A stretch of 64,000 nt of DNA, from the NCBI GenBank assembly GCA_950295325.1, contig OX485804.1, positions 3,286,001 to 3,350,000 of the forward strand, given 5' to 3'. Both the position numbers and the translations under genes were made by a program. Of the stretch, positions 1,153 through 10,724 are shown in pieces. Source of the DNA: Polytrichum commune. Taxonomy: Eukaryota > Streptophyta > Polytrichopsida > Polytrichales > Polytrichaceae. How positions within the stretch are numbered: the stretch's first letter is position 1; every line of letters starts with the position of its first letter. The notes below the pieces were generated by a model, which was given only the letters and a program-made list of their open reading frames with translations, did no database searches and was not told the DNA's origin.

Positions 1153-2930
1153 TGTCACGGTATGTGGCGTCGACGGCCGCACCTTATCCGTTGGGTTTCA
1201 TCCATCTAAATTTGGATGGATGAATCTAGATGTGAAGAGGAAGGCTCCTAAGTGAGGAGCCTCCTCCTTGGCTTGGCATTCTTGCCAAGTCAAATCTTGT
1301 GAATTAGTGTGTGGAGAGAGCTTGTGTGAGGTATAGATTGCATGATTTTGCAATAAATCTTCAGTTCTTCTTCCCTTACTTACACTCTTCGATTCTCCCT
1401 TGGTGAAGTGAGAGATAACTTGACTAGTTGTGTGCATTTGGAGAGAAATTAGAGTTTTATGAATGTTCTATTCTTTTCCTTCTCACTTGGCAAGATTGTG
1501 CATGATTCCTTTTGTTTTCTTCAAATCTTGAGCTCCAACACTCGAGAAAGACTGTGAGGATAAGTGTTTGCGACATTTTGGAGTGGAGGAAGACAAACAT
1601 TGCGGATTCGCGGAGAAACAAAGAGGAAAAATGTGTGCAAATGATGTGTTCACATCATTTTGAATTGTGGTGAGAAATTTCTCAATACTACAGGGAATTT
1701 CTTGTTATGAGTTGCCTACAAGCATGAATTTGTGAAGTAGGAGGTGGAGGAGGCATTTTTGATTTTCAAGAAGGATCACATTTTTGACAAAAAAAAAATA
1801 AACAAAAAAAAAATTGAAGAAGAGGGAGGCAGCCTGCCTCCCTCTACAGCCTGGCCCCTGGCCCTGGTCTGCAGGCTGCTTGCGACTGCCGGCGTCGGCG
1901 TCTATCTACGGTTGTCTGTGGTCTGTCTGACTGTCGGCGTCTGTTTGCGGTTGCAGGCGTCTGCGAACTTTAATTTTTTTCGCTTTCTGTTGTCTGCGTC
2001 TGCCTTCTACTAAGTGATGCAGACTTAAGTTATGATTGGAGGGATTTGTGGGCGTAATCGGTTGATTTCCGAGTGCTTGCAAGTCCAACTGGTTGTGGTT
2101 TATTTTGTTTTTGTTTTTGTTTTAATTAATCAATACGTTAATGAATTAAAACCGGACTTAATTTAATTTAATAATTAGTTTATGTTTCTTTTCAACTTCT
2201 ATTTTTTCTCCTCTCTAAGAGGTTAATTTCTTGGGCTCATTAATCAAGGACACAAAGAAGAAAACCTAAGCTCTTATGAAATATTAAAAATACTTAGAAT
2301 TTCTTTTGAGGGATTGTGTTGGGATTATTTGGGGATAGGTTTAATAGATTGTTGAAGAATTGCCTAGGGATGAAGCAAATTGGCACATGGAATCCCCATT
2401 CGACTTAACAAGATAATTGTTAAGAGCGAATTGTCTTGAGAAACACAGATTCCAGGGACTTCAAGGAGGAGAGGATTTTATGTGGTAGACTAGATGAGCG
2501 ATGTACTTATGCAATTTCTTTTCTTAAGTAACAGGGGCTCTCCATTTTGACCACCATCCGCAGGTGGGTGCCGGTTGGTCGCGGTGCTTTTAATTTTTGT
2601 TTAAGTATTATTTTGGGGAAGAGAATCCAGTGTTGTTATTGCATTGTTCCTTATATTTTGTTTTGGTACCTTCCCCCGTGGCGGGTTGTTGTGTTGGAGT
2701 CTTCCAATATTACCCCATTGTGTATTATCCTAGTTTGTGATAGGATATTGTGGGGGTGAGGTCGGAGTAATGACCGACGAGACCCTTGTGTGTGCACCAA
2801 GTGGGCTGTGTTTGTTTTCACTTGTGGTGAGGCTGGGTTAATGACCAGCAGACCATAAGTTTTGGTGGTGGTTGCAGGTGCAAGTGCAGGTTGTCTTTGA
2901 CCATTTTTCTCTTTGTACATGGATACTAAT
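1153..2930 (+). repeat. 5' terminal region (probable LTR) and leader of the inserted gypsy element
   Basis: Non-coding. It begins with TG right after the AAGA target site. It contains short inverted repeats (AGGCTCCTAAGTGAGGAGCCT near 1242-1262 and CTTGGCTTGGCATTCTTGCCAAG near 1267-1289), an A-rich stretch near 1788-1815 and a GC-rich stretch 1818-1960. The last part (2750-2900) carries the words GTCGGAGTAATGACCGACGA and GGGTTAATGACC, which recur at 33.05-33.19 kb. I could not locate a convincing tRNA primer-binding site, so where the LTR ends and the leader begins is uncertain. Small open frames here look fortuitous. Confidence 0.55.
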
Positions 2931-3041
2931 TCATTTGGGTTGTTGATTCGGTGACCATCCCATTGTGGGTTTATGGTTACAACTCGTATTCAACACTATC
3001 TTTCTCCGTCCCCAGGAGCATCGGAAGGTCATCCCTCGGAC

Positions 3042-3991
3042 CTCTCGGACGTTGAACCAGTGGTAGCACCCAACGAGGCTTTTCAGCCTACTTCGGCGTG
3101 GGGGACTATCACTCGGTCTGACGTCCTGTGAGTGGGAATCTTTAACGATATGGAGGAGGAGACTAGGGAAGGGATACGGGACCGGTTTTCCGGTCGAGCA
3201 GGGACCATTTCTCTGCAAGACTGGAAAATCGGGTTTCGTACGTGGATGCAAAAGAAACGCCAACACAATACCAATTTTAACGATTGGTATGCGTTCGAGC
3301 TTCTGCCTCAGCATTTGGAGCATGAAGCTCCCAATCTTATGAGCAGTGGACAGAGGCTCATTAGATGGAGCTGCGCCAGGTGGAGTGGTACTGGGAGACT
3401 CGGGTTGAGTTGGTATCCGCATTGAAGGAAGGCGCAGCTTCCAGTTTCATGGCCGTCCATGAGGTTAAGTCGGAGGTGCCAGAGGGAGTATTTGTGATGG
3501 ACGTGGAGGAAGCTTCTCCTAGTGAACCCAATGATAAGGGTTCTGCTCCTGTTGTGGCGAGTACGTCGAGCCCCATTCTTCCACTCTTCCGTTATGCCCA
3601 GGCTACCCAAGCGGCTTTAGCCTCTTTGGGGGCTCCGCCAGTTTTTGAGCCGTTGCGTGCATTTGAGCTGCATCTACATGAGGAGTACGGAGGATTCCAT
3701 CGGGACCAGATGCAGCGGATACAAGATTTTAGACGGGAGAAGGACGATACACCTCGTACCATGTATATGAGGTTGGCGAGGTTATATGTGGCAAGCTCGC
3801 GAGCTCGGGACAATGTGCCCGTGGACCAAATTGGTCAGGCACGACTACCATTATCTTTTGGATTGGCCGATGCCATCCAATATGTCAGTGGTCGTCATCC
3901 GAACGATGAGGTTTCACATTCATCGACCGACGTGGCTCACACGTTGGCATCTAAGATGTTGCATACACTTTTGTTCACAACTATAGAATAG
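3042..3991 (+). pseudogene. gag (capsid) region of the inserted gypsy element
   Basis: The second half reads as a gypsy gag domain: the block around LHEEYGGFHRDQMQRIQDFR followed by MYMRLARLYVASSRARD and LPLSFGLADAI has the pattern of the retrotransposon capsid family (hydrophobic helices, conserved R-x-x-x-D-T/S spacing). The upstream part (3132-3425: WKIGFRTWMQKKRQHNTNFN) is in another frame; a frameshift plus a stop near 3340-3363 separates the two. No CCHC zinc knuckle was seen. The reading ends at a TAG at 3989-3991. Start not assignable; the coordinate marks where gag-like sequence becomes plausible. Confidence 0.7.
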
Positions 3992-4069
3992 TCGTCGCCA
4001 GAGTTCCAACCTGCTAAGGTTTTTCACTTAGCAGGTAGGGTTTTAGAAGGGAAGGCATCCTTACCTTCT

Positions 4070-5010
4070 ATGACCATGGCTCAAGCCACTACGGACATTC
4101 ATGCTTCTGAACATCATGAGGAGGTGGCCAAACGGCGAGCGAGACTTGCGGCAGAGACCATTGCGTCTTTTGACGCACACGCCTCAAATGACAAGGCACC
4201 GACCACGTCTTATGACTCACCAGTATCCGCGGGAGCAGTTTATCTGTCTGATGTCGCTGCTAGACCTGCCAGCGAGCGGCGCGGCATTCGACATGGCGTT
4301 GTGCATATGGTCAATGATACCGGCATTTTGGTGGTCAGTCGCACTATGAGCAATACTACTCGGGTTGCTCCCTGTTGTATGATGATGGATTCAAGGGCAC
4401 AGCCAGTTATGATCGGCAAGAGGCTTGCCCAAGAGTTGGGGTTGACGGCCGAGGATTTTGCTCCCTGTCCATTCACCAATGTCACATCCATTGGTCACGT
4501 GGAGCGAGCCATGGGTTATACTCGGGAGCCATTACAGCTTAGCTTCCGAGTGAAGCCTGGAGATTCACCCGCACCTCTTCTTCTTAGGTGTGCGGTGACG
4601 GATGCGACCAACTATGACATTTTAGTTGGTCAGCAAGCACTTTACCCTCTTGGTTTTGGTTTGGACAACTTAACTGAGGAGGCGTGGATCCGATCAGGTT
4701 GGTCGGCTGGGGATGGCCGCAGGGAACTTATTCCCGTTACTTTCGCGGCGGCCGCGACCATAGCACCATTATCTATGGTTTTTGGATGTGGTGCTATGGT
4801 GGACACATTGCCTTATGGTTCCGCATTGTTGGAGGAGTCATTGGCATTCATGGGGAGTACAGACGATCAACGGGATATGGCACCTAAGGGTGCATTGGTG
4901 CGTCATCCCAAAGATCCCCTTCCTCCTTGGCTTGATTCCGCCGAGCTATTTCGGAGGTGGGAGGATATTATTCACTCTCTCACTCCTAAGACACCGGCAT
5001 ACCGGGTGTC
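4070..5010 (+). pseudogene. Retropepsin-like aspartic protease region
   Basis: The stretch MMMDSRAQPVMIGKRLAQEL (about residues 108-127 of the open frame from 4070) matches the active-site loop of retroviral-type aspartic proteases, where D-S/T-G-A is normal. Here the Gly is Arg (DSRA), so this copy should be inactive. The flap and second hydrophobic segment are plausible (LLLRCAVTDATNYDILVGQQ). The block lies between gag and the methyltransferase, the normal position for protease at the start of pol. Past about 5010 this frame is a shadow; the meaningful frame shifts to the methyltransferase. Product if intact: it would process the polyprotein. Confidence 0.75.
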
Positions 5011-5019
5011 CTCTCGGCA

Positions 5020-6200
5020 TTGGCACATCCCATTTTATGGCAGCCGCCAAACGATGGAATTACTTTGGCAGAGCTGTTTGGGGGCATTGGCACAGGTTTG
5101 GCAGCCGTATTGGAGGTTGGCCTTACGGTCAACCGATATGTCTATGTAGACAACTCTCCAGTGTCCACCCGTGCGGCTCGTCATCATCTTCACCGGTTGA
5201 TAGTGTTGTACCCACAGCAGTTACACCCAACTGCCATTCGTGGGTGTTTTTGACGTCTCCCTCGTGATGTCACACTCATCAGTGAGGCCGACTTACGACA
5301 CTTAGGTCCGGTGGATATGGTGATTGCGGGATGGCTATCCCAGGGCCATTCACGTGCTGGAGCAGGCGGAGGACTAGAGGATCCCAGGTCTACTCTATTT
5401 TGGGACCTCATCCGCCTCATGCAGTGGTGGTATTCCCACCAACCTTTCCCTCCAGGGTATATTTTCGAGAATGTACCTTTGTTGGGAGACTCTCGGGACA
5501 AGATGTTGGAAGGCGATTATTATGTTCGTCAACACCTTGGAGATCCCATTTTTGTGGATGCCGCGAGCATTGGTTTTTATGCCCACCGGCCTCGGTGAAT
5601 TTGGACCAACGTCGCACCATCATCTACTTTAGCTGCAGCATTTTCTGCAGTGCCTCCACATTTTGATCAAAAGGTGGATGACATCTTGGATCCAAACCGA
5701 ACTTCTTTGCCGGTTGTTCGAGATTATTTACCCCCGTTGGCATTGGTCAACAAAATGGGGCACCACGGCGGGCCTTTCCCACATTTATGATGTTTCCACA
5801 GTCCTTCGCTTTCCGCGATAGGGGGCCGGGTATGGTGTGGGATGTTCATACCAAAACTCACACCGAACCATTGGCTAACAAACGGGAGCGTGCCATGAGA
5901 TTCCGCACTGGCACCACCGTAGCTCCCGGCCTTTCTGAGGGCCAACGACGATTCGTGTTGGGCCAAGCTATGGATCTTCATACCATGGTGTGGACTGTTG
6001 CTTTATGCCTTTCATTGCAAAGGCATCGTGGTGACCAGTGGTTGTCTCTGGAGGCAGAGGACTCTGGTCAGGGGGCACAACGGTCCACACCCATGGAGGA
6101 GGGAATTCACGCCATAGTTGGAGAAGCCGAACGAATTATTCAATTCGAGCAGCATGTGATGGAAGAGCTTCGAGCTCAACATTTTTACATTGCTTCGGTT
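5020..6200 (+). pseudogene. Cytosine-5 DNA methyltransferase domain inside the gypsy polyprotein
   Basis: C5-methyltransferase motifs appear in canonical order: motif I AELFGGIGTGLAA (5068-5106), the motif II acidic turn YVYVDNS (5138-5158), motif IV in DMVIAGWLSQGHSRAG (5314-5361), motif VI YIFENVP (5458-5478), a motif VIII-like AHRPR then IWTN (5581-5616), and motifs IX-X at SFAFRDRGPGMVWD and EGQRRFVLGQAMDLHT (5806-5985). Such enzymes methylate cytosine C5 using S-adenosylmethionine. Motif IV normally reads P-C-Q with Cys as the nucleophile; here it is L-S-Q (5335-5343), so this copy is catalytically dead by family rules. Stops at 5251 and 5596 and a frameshift near 5770 also break it. Canonical motif order argues against a plant DRM (permuted). 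It sits between protease and reverse transcriptase with no sign of a separate insertion. Confidence 0.88.
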
Positions 6201-6325
6201 CTTCGCCTCCGGTGGTGGCTTCATCACCACATATTGGTGGTGATGAAGAAATGTCAGACTCTAGTACTAGCACCGAGACTAGGGACATGGTTAATGCCCC
6301 CTCCTCTCATTAGCAATTAGAGTCT

Positions 6326-7378
6326 GTGCCAACATCAGGTGGTTCTCCTTCGGTGGAGGGGGAGACTACAGAGTTTGATGATTGGCCACTTGAATTAGGC
6401 CCTTGTCTCACTGGTGCTGAGGCACGGAAGGTACGAGCATTTATTCGCTCGTACCGTAGATGTTTTGTTTTTAGCCTTCAGGATCTTGAAGGTTATAAAG
6501 GAAAACCCATCCACATTCAGTTGGAGGACGACCATCCCATTTTTCGGAGACCTCACAGGCTCAGTGTTTCCGAGCGGATTGGCGTTCAGGCTCGTTGCCG
6601 AGAGCTCTTGGCAGCAGGGCTAATCGAACTTTCCAACGGGGAGTATGCTTGTGCTACAGTTATGCCATCGAAGAATGATATCTTTGGCAATTGGACGGAG
6701 AAGCGGATGTGTGGGGATTACCGTCCAGTTAATCGGAAGACCAAGTCGGATCGGTATCCCATGCCGATCCCGAAGGAGTTGTTCGATGCCATCGGATTTT
6801 CTCGGGTCTTTAGCACCTTGGACTTGAGATCCGGATATTACCAACTTCCATTACTTACAGGACATCGGGTGAAGACCGCATTTTGGGGAGTTGATCAAGA
6901 TGGGAAAGATCAACTTTATTATTGGAAGTTTCTTCCATTTGGCCTGGAGAATGCACCCGCTGAGTTTCAGCGGGTGATGGATCAGGTTCTCTCTGGCTTG
7001 CCCTTTGCTCGGTGTTACATAGATGATGTGATCATCTTCAGCACAACACCACAGGAGCATGTGAAGCATCTGCAAGCCATTTTTGAACGGTTGCAGCGGT
7101 GGGGATTGCGTTTGCACCACGGCAAGTGCAAGTTTTTCCATGACCGGCTGGCATATCTAGGGCATATGATTGTTCCAGGAGGTCTTGGGGTACAACAAGC
7201 TAAGGTGGACGCCTTGCAGAAGATTCCGGCACCGGTTGATGTGCCGAGACTTCATGCTTTCTTAGGCTTGGCGAATTACTATCGGCGATTCGTCAAGAAT
7301 TTTAGTTTGATCGCCAAGCCTCTCACCATTTTCACGAGCAAGGACCAACCGTGGACTTGGGGTCATGAGCAACAATAG
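6326..7378 (+). pseudogene. Reverse transcriptase domain of the inserted gypsy element
   Basis: A clear gypsy reverse transcriptase: the RIQLEDDHPIFRR-type entry, then RMCGDYRPVNRKTKSDRYPMP, STLDLRSGYYQL, FLPFGLENAPAEFQRVMD, and the catalytic box CYIDDVIIFS (near 7014-7043), followed by LGHMIVPGGLGV and the thumb segment FLGLANYYRRFVKNFS. All key Asp residues are kept (one in DLRSGY, two in YIDD). The frame is open upstream to about 6038 except for a TAG at 6311-6313, and ends in a TAG at 7376-7378 where homologues read straight on into the RNase H connection, so this is a nonsense break rather than a natural end. Confidence 0.95.
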
Positions 7379-9247
7379 GCGTTTAAAACATTGAAGCAGA
7401 AACTGGGTACGGCTCCAGTGCTTCGACGTCTAGATGTCTCCAAATCTTTCCAGTTGCATACAGATTGGAGTTCATTGGGTTTGGGAGAAGTTCTCACTCA
7501 GAAAGATGATTTTGGCCGGGAGTATGTTGTTGCTTACGCTTCGCGAAGCAATAATACGGCGGAGGCTAATTATTCATCCGACGAGGAAAAAACATTGGCG
7601 GCAGTATGGGCTATTGCCCATTTTTGGCCGTATCTTTATGGTCAACACTTTACTTTAGTGACTGACCATCAGCCGTTACAGTGGTTCATGGAATCGGATA
7701 AGCTTACTGGCAAGCTTCCCAGGTGGGCTTTGTTGCTCCAGGAATATGACTTTGAGGTGGTACACCGTGCTGGGATTACCAACATGGATGCAGATGGACT
7801 CAATCCAAGGCCTTCGGATGAGGATTTGACCGGGGTCAGGTGGCATGGAAATTGTGATCGAGAGGCGGTTCCAGGTTGGCACACGGCTGCCTACCTCACT
7901 TTATTTTCTGGTGCATCTGTTGAGATTCCGATAAAGGGCTCGGATGATGAGACTGATCGGCCTCAAGCTATTACGGATATATGGGAGGATCTTCCCGTAT
8001 TGTATAAGCTTCAACAGGGTACCTTTCCTTTGTCTATTTCGGCAATGGAAAGGAATAGGATTGGACATCGAATAATAAGGTTCTATTGGGAGAACTGTTT
8101 GTTATTTCGATTGTGGCTGGATGGGACAAGGCGTATTGTTCCTAGGCCGGATCAGAGGGCCTCCTTGGTGCGACAAATGCACGAGGAACTTGGCCATTTT
8201 GGCATACACATGACACATTCGATGTTGCGTGGCCAATATTGGTGGACTGGCATGTATCAGCAGGTGGCTGCTTATGTCGGGAGGTATGAAGTTTGTGACC
8301 GGGTCAAGTCTAGCTTTAACACCTTGTCACCTCAGTTACAGCCCTTACCTATAATGGGATTGGGCTACCGTTGGTCGCTAGACTTTGCGGGACCGTTGGT
8401 TGTCACGCCACGTGGAGCAAAGTACGTGTTGGTGATGGTGGAGCATTTTAGCAAGTGGATTGAGCTTGTTGCTTTACCCCAAAACTCTGCAGAGTTGGCC
8501 GCGGCCGCCTTTTTGGATCGTGTGTTGGCACATTTTGGAGCACCGGCTGAGGTGTTGACGGACCAAGGGAGGGAGTTCCTTGGTGTTTTTAAGGAGTTGT
8601 GCACTAAGACGCTCATAGATCACCGCACCACCTCTCGGGATCATCCGGAGGCAGATGGCTTGGCTGAACGGGTTGTTCATACAACCAAGCGTGGCTTGAG
8701 GAAGTATGGATTACTTCGGGGAAGCCACCGGGATTGGGACCTTATGTTGCCTTGGATTGGTATGGGCTATCGATTTAGTAGGCATGACTCTTTGGCTTCC
8801 TACAACCCGTATCAGTTGTTGTATGGACGTGAGCCTATACTCCCGAGTTTTATTCGGGAAAAACTAGCTCCTGTTGTGAACTTGGATGACCCAGACCTTT
8901 GGGCAGAGTGTTTGCAGGAGCGGGGTCAATTCTTCCAGAGGGCCATGCCTATGACCATGGAGAATTTGTCCATTGCTCAGCACCGTGACACATTGCGTTA
9001 TGCACGCATTCGCAGTGGTGCTTACCAACCTCAGTTGCGAAGATTCCGGCAGGGGGATTATGTCTATCTCCAACGTGCGGCGCCTACGACATTGGATGTC
9101 AGGGCGGGGCGCACTATCCTTCGGGTGAAAGAGGTGTTGCCGAGTGGTTTGTTGTTGTTGGAAGGCAAGGATAGCAGGGAATGTCGCGAGAATTCCAAAA
9201 ACTGTGCCCCATGTCATCTACCTATTGAAGGTACAGTTCATCCTTAA
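7379..9247 (+). pseudogene. RNase H and integrase of the inserted gypsy element
   Basis: Same frame as the reverse transcriptase. RNase H has its first Asp in LHTDWSSLGLG, Glu in SSDEEKTLAAVWAI, Asp in VTDHQPLQW and a terminal Asp in NMDADGL. The integrase zinc-binding domain has HEELGHFG, but the first Cys of the usual CEVC is Tyr (YEVC). The core keeps the D-D-E triad: SLDFAGPL, LTDQGREFLG, HPEADGLAERVV. A C-terminal SH3-like domain (FRQGDYVYLQRA, ILRVKEVLPSGLLLLEGK) follows. The frame ends in TAA (9245-9247) within a segment that continues smoothly into the PHD finger. Apart from the nonsense codons at 7376 and 9245 this is the best preserved part of the element. Confidence 0.95.
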
Positions 9248-9454
9248 CTGGCCGTCGTGCCAGAGGATCTTCCATGTTTTGTGTGTGGAGAGAAGAAAGG
9301 AGCGGCTACTATGCTCTTATGTGATCAGTGTCAACGCGGTTGGCACATGGCATGCTTGAGGCCACCCTTGACTTCTCTACCATCTGGACAGTGGAATTGT
9401 CCTCGCAGTCGAGGATCTTCGGTACTTGGTGCTTCCACCAATCGTATTCAATGA
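9248..9454 (+). pseudogene. PHD finger appended to the gypsy integrase
   Basis: In the same frame as the integrase, one stop codon later, the sequence reads CFVCGEKKGAATMLLCDQC, then QRGWHMACLRPPL and GQWNCPRS. The spacing Cys-x2-Cys, Cys-x2-Cys, x4-His-x2-Cys, then Trp-x-Cys-x2-(Cys) is that of a C4HC3 PHD finger, a zinc fold that in many nuclear proteins reads histone H3 tails. The final ligand Cys is Ser here (AGT), so zinc binding is probably impaired. In chromoviruses a chromodomain occupies this place and biases integration; a PHD finger here could play the same role, which is inference. The frame ends at 9454; plausible downstream coding sequence in another frame suggests a longer original C terminus. 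Confidence 0.85.
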
Positions 9455-9738
9455 TCCTGTGTGGTTTTCATCATCTTGTGTCTGCCCAAATGGAAAATGA
9501 GGAGTTATGGCTTAGAGACGCAATCAACATGAGGCGGTGGATTTAATTTTTTTGGGATCTGATGGCCAAACATCAGAGGCAATTAAGGATGGGGCTCACC
9601 TTGCACCCAGCCTACAGTTCCTTGGAATAACGTTTACCACACTAGTTAGTTGCGGAGCAATCTTTCATTATCCATGCTCTTTAGATTGGCGTTGGTCCTA
9701 GCTGTTTGGCGGGACTTCATAGTCAGCTAAGGGGGGCA
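9455..9738 (+). other. Tail of the gypsy internal region and polypurine tract
   Basis: Two frames give protein-like fragments (for example VDLIFLGSDGQTSEAIKDGA, then APSLQFLGITFTTLVSC), suggesting the polyprotein once extended beyond the PHD finger and has been frameshifted. I do not recognise a domain. It ends with the purine run AAGGGGGGCA at 9729-9738, the expected plus-strand primer site just before a 3' LTR. Confidence 0.55.
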
Positions 9739-9952
9739 TGTCGAGGTGTGTTGTTTATGTGTGACTTTGCTATGTTTTAGTGTTGTTTGTTAGTGGTGGT
9801 TGGTACTCGAGCTGCAGTGACACACGATCGCTATTTACACGACAGCTGTCAAGGTGTGTTGTTTATGTGTGACTTTGCTATGTTTTAGTGTTGTTTGTTA
9901 GTGGTGGTTGGTACTCGAGCTGCAGTGACACACGATCGCTATTTACACGACA
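9739..9952 (+). repeat. 3' terminal region of the inserted element: 108-bp unit duplicated in tandem
   Basis: Starts TGTCGAGGTG right after the purine tract and ends ACGACA before the AAGA target duplication. It consists of two near-identical copies of a 108-bp unit (9739-9846 and 9847-9952); the second starts TGTCAAGG. The two terminal bases at each end (TG...CA) fit an LTR, but only the first few bases resemble the 5' end of the element. The 3' LTR may be deleted and duplicated, or the element may be a recombinant. Confidence 0.7.
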
Positions 9953-10340
9953 AAGAGATTGCATTACAGAAGTTGAAGGCTGCCAGGCTGCATAACAAAG
10001 AGAAGTTTGACAAAGTCACCGTTTGAGATCCAAACCAATTAATGTTGGAGATTGGGTGTTAGTATTTGATAGCAATTTGGAGCATCAACATAGCACTTTA
10101 AATTTTTTTGCTCAAATGCGGTTTGTTCCATATGTGGTGATTGTAGTACATGACAATGACACCTATTTTCTTTGTGAGTTGGATGGAACAAGATTGAAGA
10201 TACATATGGCTGGGAAGCGGGTAAAAGCATTTAGGAGGAGAAATAGTAGGTTTATTCGAAATGATCTTGTAGATGTTGTGGAATTTGACTTGGACGAACA
10301 AGAAGATTCGGAGACATGTAAGTCTGATGAAGATATTTAG
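9953..10340 (+). pseudogene. Integrase C-terminal part of the outer gypsy element (right half)
   Basis: Resumes the outer element where 1152 broke off: ALQKLKAARLHNKEKF, then after a stop at 10024 the block NVGDWVLVFDSNLEHQHSTL, RFVPYVVIVVHDNDTYFLCELDGT and AGKRVKAFRRRN. This is the integrase C-terminal SH3-like/GPY-F region of plant Ty3/gypsy elements. An acidic tail follows, ending in TAG at 10338-10340. Joining both halves across the insertion restores a continuous family pattern, which is the main support for the nested structure. Confidence 0.9.
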
Positions 10341-10508: not shown

Positions 10509-10724
10509 AGTTAGATAGTTGATAGTTATTCATTGAAAGTTTCTTAGAAGATAGAGAGTTGTCTTAAGTTAATAGTTAAAAGTTAGTTGATTGGTAGTTA
10601 TCTATAGAAAGATGCTTAGACGATAGTGAGTTACTTTAAGTTAGTAGTTAAGAGTTAGATAGTTGAGAGTTATCTATAGGAAGTTGCTAAAGAAAAAGTG
10701 AGTTGTCTTAAGTTAGGTGTATGG
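10509..10724 (+). repeat. Three tandem 72-bp repeats in the LTR U3
   Basis: Units begin at 10509, 10581 and 10653, each opening AGTTAG and closing around TTAAGTTA, diverged by roughly a fifth by eye. They lie directly upstream of a TATA box in a presumed U3 region, where direct repeats often act as enhancers in LTR elements. Function is inference. Confidence 0.8.

Follow-up and report, generated by a model that had tools for sequence, protein, structure and literature searches.

The window, by which we mean the whole 64,000-nucleotide stretch of the Polytrichum commune genome analysed here (contig OX485804.1, positions 3,286,001 to 3,350,000), contains at positions 1153-9952 a defective copy from a large Ty3/gypsy family, with all features on the forward strand. 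Identical copies of AAGA at 1149-1152 and 9953-9956 represent the target-site duplication. The left terminal repeat A1 (1153-1484) begins with TGTCACGG, its left end being set by the target duplication, and its first 332 nt are 92.5% identical to the repeat A2 of another genomic copy, L015. Adjoining A1 is a putative primer-binding site (1485-1495), decayed in this copy, which is complementary to the element's own A repeat and forms its longest self-complement within the first 700 nt; the exact 11-nt counterpart lies within A1 at 1280-1290, in the presumed 5' part of the RNA. At the right end, the polypurine tract GGGGGGCA (9731-9738) directly precedes the first right-end repeat, B1 (9739-9844), which shares 99% identity with the right terminal repeat B2 (9847-9952), ending in ACACGACA. 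The A2 repeat between B1 and B2 has shrunk to a few bases. The element is itself nested: a different gypsy element occupies 155-1152 and 9953-10340, and its integrase frame is split by the insertion, with AAGA at the junctions. Just downstream of the nested pair, at 10509-10715, a 63-nt repeat occurs in three copies at 72-nt spacing.

The coding part starts with a gag remnant, the capsid part, at 2970-3781 (tblastn with the ORF1s of copies L009 and L015). Both gag zinc knuckles have been lost by a deletion at about 3782, and about 730 nt of gag are absent relative to L015. The remaining Gag and the aspartic protease follow at 3785-4996 (tblastn, 87% to L015 ORF1); by eye, the protease core reads MMDSRAQ here versus MMDSGAQ in L009 and L015, and the Pfam protease models (Asp_protease_2 / gag-asp_proteas) score below the cut-off even in open copies. 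A DNMT3-type C5-cytosine methyltransferase domain spans 5017-6020 (PF00145 and tblastn), with the PF00145 match at 5254-5598 (E 3.8e-7) and a tblastn alignment of 5026-6020 to the L009 domain that runs in two frames at 58-61% identity. Next come an in-frame TAG-CAA-TTA (6311-6319), a readthrough-type stop at the methyltransferase/reverse transcriptase (RT) boundary that has the form UAG-CAR-YYA in other copies, RT (6698-7171; PF00078, E 1.9e-28), RNase H (7433-7747; PF17917, E 2e-33), integrase with an H2C2 zinc finger and a DDE core (8147-8647; PF17921 and PF00665) and, at the integrase C-terminus, a PHD finger (9275-9406; PF00628, 45.6 bits, G000:C2:3295275-3295406).

A preliminary description, made from the letters alone, had placed a methyltransferase with canonical motif order between protease and RT, in the orientation of the element and free of extra target-site scars. 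This arrangement was borne out: RT, RNase H and integrase lie downstream in the same orientation, motifs I, IV, VI, VIII and X could be confirmed in canonical order, and the only duplication is the single clean AAGA around the whole element, which implies that the element brought the methyltransferase along instead of acquiring it at this site. The leaky stop, the PHD finger, the DIRS-like repeats, the self-priming site and the broken state of this copy did not figure in the preliminary description. While the observation is thus real, the copy itself is dead. Its ORF1 match shifts frame between the pieces 3785-4996, 4999-5796, 5727-6200 and 6200-6310, internal stops are present, gag and methyltransferase are both broken, and ORF2 contains a stop at 7376-7378. 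In motif IV of the methyltransferase, which has suffered frame changes and stops, Cys is replaced by Ser; the window copy reads GWLSQ where L009 and L015 have GWPCQ, so that the catalytic Cys required of a DNMT3-type enzyme is lost.

The plastid psaB gene is closest to the photosystem I chains 7ksq, 6l35 and 8htu of the moss Physcomitrium patens (1671.8 bits each, 1634.3 for the next chain), as would be expected of a moss host. The genome (408 Mb in 64 contigs, seven of them large) yielded 123 scored PF00145 matches among 353 candidates, a number that is a lower bound because the window copy is absent from those rows. By eye, 18 of the 123 fall in open frames of 1,356-1,386 aa. Twenty-four of the places were inspected, and 23 proved to be elements; the remaining one is a host DRM gene (L027), which is excluded from all element counts. 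Our set of 24 distinct copies comprises the 19 element copies among 20 fetched stretches, the copies L001, L005, L006 and L008, and the window copy; L002, L003, L004 and L007, which repeat L014, L015, L028 and L026, were dropped as duplicates. Protease, methyltransferase and RT matches were found in all 23 copies other than that of the window, and in 8 of the 19 fetched copies both frames are open with a single stop between them (ORF1 at least 1,356 aa and ORF2 at least 1,045 aa, in one frame). A search for the PHD finger gave 150 scored rows among 514 candidates, 29 of which show, by eye, a match without a stop at the full ORF2 length of 1,047-1,048 aa. The copies belong to two subfamilies, I and II, with about 60-65% methyltransferase identity between them. 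Many subfamily I copies also carry tandem repeats in their long 5' leader (e.g. L009, about 508-694 and 829-1113), which are not reported for L015.

The preliminary description had named a chance insertion or pseudogene fusion, confined to this one copy, as the outcome to expect if no other copy had the domain at this position. The broken state of the window copy would suit such an accident, but the genome-wide recurrence of the same arrangement, often in open copies, and the relatives found in liverworts, Sphagnum and algae rule it out for practical purposes. The DNMT3-type methyltransferase is almost certainly a gene of the element.

In complete copies, ORF1 encodes Gag with two zinc knuckles (identified by eye), the aspartic protease and the methyltransferase, which is followed by a tail of about 100 aa; after the UAG, ORF2 encodes RT, RNase H, integrase and the PHD finger. 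Protease, methyltransferase and RT therefore do not form one uninterrupted frame in the best copies: the frame is the same, but it is interrupted by a conserved UAG before RT. UAG-CAR-YYA, the type I (tobamovirus-type) readthrough motif (PMC3542737; PMC2194720), is present at the ORF1/ORF2 junction of all 24 distinct copies, and the variants observed (TTA, TCA and CCA; CAA and one CAG) all remain within this consensus. Genome-wide, subfamily I junctions have TAG in 92 of 93 cases, TAA in one and a sense codon in none, as determined with a pattern that allowed any codon at the stop but itself required CAR-YYA. Since copies are little diverged within a subfamily, they do not count as independent evidence for conservation of the stop. 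The stronger point is that the stop is kept in both subfamilies despite near-saturated synonymous sites and despite a similarity of just 53% in the 60 nt 5' of it (ungapped, one copy per subfamily compared).

With the methyltransferase upstream of UAG-CAR-YYA, the enzyme should be made at the level of Gag, and its Gag-side expression by readthrough is, on this pattern, very probable. The majority of ribosomes would halt at the UAG and release Gag-protease-methyltransferase, and a minority would read through to give the full polyprotein; if termination is the rule and readthrough rare, methyltransferase would greatly outnumber RT in the particle. In the 19 closest relatives (P0001-P0019), too, the frame ends 73-142 aa past the methyltransferase and is devoid of RT. 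The methyltransferase does run on into RT in one predicted protein in 10 of 35 relatives; P0027 and P0028 belong to these, as do several gene models from Marchantia and Sphagnum. The stop therefore either is not universal or was bridged by the gene predictions.

Instead of two identical full LTRs, the element has A1 at the left end and B1-A2-B2 at the right end. Eight copies besides that of the window were measured and have an A2 of about 330-560 bp. Where both B repeats are present, the sequence at the B1-A2 joint is ACACGACA-GC-TGTCACG in the majority of copies, so that both outer element ends recur there around a palindrome. All nine copies for which both ends are available show perfect target duplications of 4 bp. 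Of eight copies compared, four have no difference between A1 and A2 over 430-432 bp, and the other four have 98.7-99.8% identity, which indicates that some insertions are recent. At the primer site, the self-complement amounts to 13 or 15 nt, exact, in 8 copies and to the 11 nt of the decayed window copy; in all nine it is the longest self-complement within the first 700 nt, and two positions that differ between the subfamilies are compensated between primer site and A site. Tf1-type LTR elements self-prime, and the moss element may do likewise, its putative primer site being complementary to what is presumed to be its own 5' RNA. We suggest that an RNA of the form R-U5...U3-R, with B-A as the LTR, would be copied by self-priming at the site after A1, that the linear product would close to a two-LTR circle, and that the integrase would open this circle at one B-A joint. 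The A2-B2 joint is shifted in 2 of 14 copies (L011 and L021) and in the window copy; in every case the shift coincides with a short shared word, as would fit closure by end joining.

Split direct repeats of the type A1...B1-A2-B2 are those of DIRS/PAT-type elements. Membership in that group, which has a tyrosine recombinase and no target duplication, was nevertheless rejected on the basis of the DDE integrase and the target duplications; a scan of both ORFs in two copies detected no recombinase domain. With Ty3/gypsy elements (Metaviridae) the moss element shares the Ty3-type RT followed by RNase H and integrase, the rve (DDE) domain and the short target duplication, and the nearest solved relative of L009 ORF2 is Ty3 Gag-Pol (E 7.4e-102). 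It differs from them in the absence of a full LTR pair, in the additional methyltransferase and PHD finger, and in the position of the break, which comes after Gag in Ty3/gypsy but, as a leaky stop, after the methyltransferase in the moss element.

The type of the enzyme is clear from several comparisons. From a single sequence, the best solved relative is DNMT3A (1.2e-8). An 11-row profile retrieved DNMT3A (E 5.6e-25) and DNMT3B (8e-23), then 4onj (1e-13), a chain recorded as DNA methyltransferase that we take to be tobacco DRM, and chains named DRM2 (6e-11), both only over motifs I-IV, as well as HhaI (3e-9), HaeIII (7e-9) and DNMT2 (5e-8); no chain named DNMT1 or chromomethylase was among the 57 within 0.01. 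P0106 is a relative that shares 77% identity in the domain; its predicted model has a mean pLDDT of 82.5 (above 90 over most of the domain), and DNMT3 structures fill all of the best 50 PDB rows among its 185 matches at E 0.001. As judged from the model of this relative, the predicted fold is DNMT3-like. The element domain shares its catalytic type and the canonical motif order, I to X, with DNMT3 from animals and from bryophytes. Among host regulatory domains, only the PHD finger on the integrase side was detected in the polyprotein. The DRM-type rearrangement, in which motifs VI-X come before I-V, is absent from the element. Such an order characterizes plant DRM and is seen in the host DRM gene L027 (G000:C2:4698400-4708300), where motifs VI-X lie upstream of I-V. 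Direct capture from the host DRM in its present form was rejected, as that gene is rearranged and the element domain is not.

The catalytic residues are well preserved outside the window copy. The Cys is found in 147 of 151 near-complete sequences (three gaps and one Tyr) and the Glu in 150 of 151, and the catalytic residues are invariant in all 11 aligned sequences. Selection was analysed on copies in which 95% or more of the domain concerned is open; for the methyltransferase, this left 12 of 14 in subfamily I and 6 of 9 in subfamily II. Between subfamilies, the methyltransferase shows a median pN of 0.231 versus a pS of 0.734 (72 pairs, which are non-independent). The corresponding medians of pN and pS are 0.220 and 0.776 for Gag, 0.282 and 0.769 for protease, 0.057 and 0.720 for RT, 0.074 and 0.756 for RNase H, 0.068 and 0.756 for integrase, and 0.104 and 0.705 for the PHD finger. 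Pooled pN/pS between subfamilies is 0.31 for the methyltransferase versus 0.08 for RT, and among young subfamily I copies the methyltransferase is weakly constrained (pN/pS 0.55, 66 pairs). Judging from these substitution ratios, the methyltransferase is under purifying selection, constrained like Gag and protease and less than RT. That it is a selected Gag-side enzyme of the element is the claim that we would defend.

Relatives extend across the green lineage. The search that gave 35 relatives named Marchantia polymorpha and Sphagnum fallax, and further named relatives come from Closterium sp. NIES-53, Haematococcus lacustris and a record labelled Mesvir1, which we take for Mesostigma viride. 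Sphagnum troendelagicum, Calypogeia fissa, Marchantia paleacea and Cymbomonas tetramitiformis appear among the best 120 of 351 matches; no protein named for Klebsormidium is among the matches listed, these 120 included. P0106 is publicly recorded under a bacterium, Candidatus Obscuribacterales, and probably reflects plant contamination of a metagenome bin. Viral contigs were discarded as a source of relatives, since the 12 loci gave short, weak matches that we take for phage C5 methyltransferases.

Methyltransferase and RT occur together in 56 of 224 proteins. Going by where the domains start, 16 have the methyltransferase ahead of RT and 40 have RT ahead (15 without overlap); the named streptophytes with both domains (Marchantia, Sphagnum and Closterium) have the methyltransferase first, and Haematococcus has RT first. 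The PHD finger is present in both architecture types. Trees of the two domains, built from 34 near-complete proteins and two moss copies and containing no non-element DNMT3 outgroup, agree with each other (36 tips, Mantel r 0.77, none of 2000 permutations as high). Ten strongly supported splits are common to both, the RT tree contradicts 2 of the 15 strong splits for the methyltransferase, and by eye both trees divide the family by architecture into two clades with two methyltransferase positions. These two positions, protease/RT and RNase H/integrase, could mean that DNMT3-like domains were captured more than once in the green lineage, all the more so as independent acquisitions with two domain orders are described for Symbiodinium DIRS elements in the main text of PMC5890265. 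The agreement of the trees and the PHD finger in both types speak against repeated capture, which we regard as possible but lean away from.

Capture of a methyltransferase by a gypsy element is already known from Klebsormidium, and the preliminary description was right in recalling such cases from this alga and from dinoflagellates (PMC5890265). KnitGypsy-Dnmt3 of Klebsormidium nitens is, according to the main text of that paper (de Mendoza 2018, PMC5890265), a gypsy element with a DNMT3-type domain under purifying selection, with repeats like those of a DIRS retrotransposon and the domain composition of gypsy. The moss element matches this published description in its gypsy polyprotein, DNMT3 domain and DIRS-like repeats. 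KnitGypsy-Dnmt3 has fewer copies than the elements of Symbiodinium, and its enzyme gave no methylation in yeast, a result called inconclusive by the authors; the main text makes no mention of a PHD finger, readthrough or self-priming for this element (PMC5890265). As described there, SymbioDIRS-Dnmt3 and SymbioLINE-Dnmt of Symbiodinium likewise are retroelements with a cytosine methyltransferase, the DIRS type in two domain orders, but they belong to another host lineage and rely on a tyrosine recombinase or are LINEs, as opposed to the DDE integrase of the moss element (PMC5890265). A 2025 survey reports DNMT3 in streptophyte and dinoflagellate retrotransposons and names LTR Copia and DIRS families (PMC12344493). 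The open-licence literature searched, including PMC9033089, PMC12730594, PMC6453930, PMC8885841, PMC11244446 and PMC3441728, contained no description of the PHD finger, of the leaky stop or of such elements in bryophytes.

Taken as a whole, we explain the locus as a decayed Ty3/gypsy copy from a family whose Gag precursor ends in a DNMT3-type methyltransferase that would mark the element cDNA before integration, an explanation to which we assign a probability of roughly 65%. That the enzyme acts on the element's own DNA is its likeliest use, at about even odds when judged from sequence. Methylation of the new double-stranded cDNA, or of its circle, would precede insertion by the DDE integrase, which generates a 4-bp target duplication, and each copy would arrive already marked. 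The element would probably gain either from cDNA that resembles host DNA or from an immediate quieting of the new copy that limits its harm. The preliminary description had suggested that the enzyme might serve to mask the element or to evade other controls. CpG counts show no excess loss such as self-methylation might cause; the observed/expected ratio is 0.67-0.76 in 12 copies, above the 0.53 of the window at 12001-64000, although coding constraint confounds this comparison. The PHD finger (L009:8319-8486) resembles those of CHD4, PHF12, PHF21A, KAT6A, UHRF1 and KDM5. The finger may steer integration by reading histone H3; we consider the chances of such PHD-guided integration evenly balanced.

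The same finger is borne by the integrase of the same element and is like those of PHF21A, UHRF1, KAT6A and KDM5, several of which read unmodified H3K4, as the ADD domain of DNMT3 does. It would also suit a methyltransferase that works mainly on host chromatin, where PHD-bearing integration complexes or free Gag-side enzyme would mark the landing site or defence loci and alter silencing. However, the stop and, presumably, a protease cleavage lie between methyltransferase and PHD finger, which hence need not travel together; we regard a role on host chromatin as unlikely. Even less probable is a nucleic-acid-binding or structural role of the domain within the particle, with catalysis being dispensable. 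The domain is encoded with Gag and diverges more than RT, as might be the case in such a role, but its catalytic residues are kept in distant relatives, and binding alone would not demand a conserved Cys and Glu. Marking of the element cDNA by a Gag-side enzyme remains our preferred explanation. A wider and rather doubtful extension of it is that a DNMT3 writer and a PHD reader were captured together in a single ancient event by green-plant gypsy elements and kept since before the chlorophyte/streptophyte split. In bryophytes, the Gag-side writer would then make a methylating particle that marks the cDNA, the integrase would be guided by the reader, and two polypeptides would rebuild the logic of host DNMT3.

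The Gag-side placement leads to a concrete prediction about the amount of the enzyme and its site of action, which we did not find in the main text of PMC5890265. Bryophytes are experimental hosts, and the relatives in Marchantia polymorpha are mostly named 'hypothetical protein'. Plants silence such elements by cytosine methylation, yet in many lineages selection has preserved the element's own methyltransferase, and this presents a testable paradox: why would a DNA parasite with more than 100 copies and its own DNA-marking enzyme methylate, if the host silences by the same mark?
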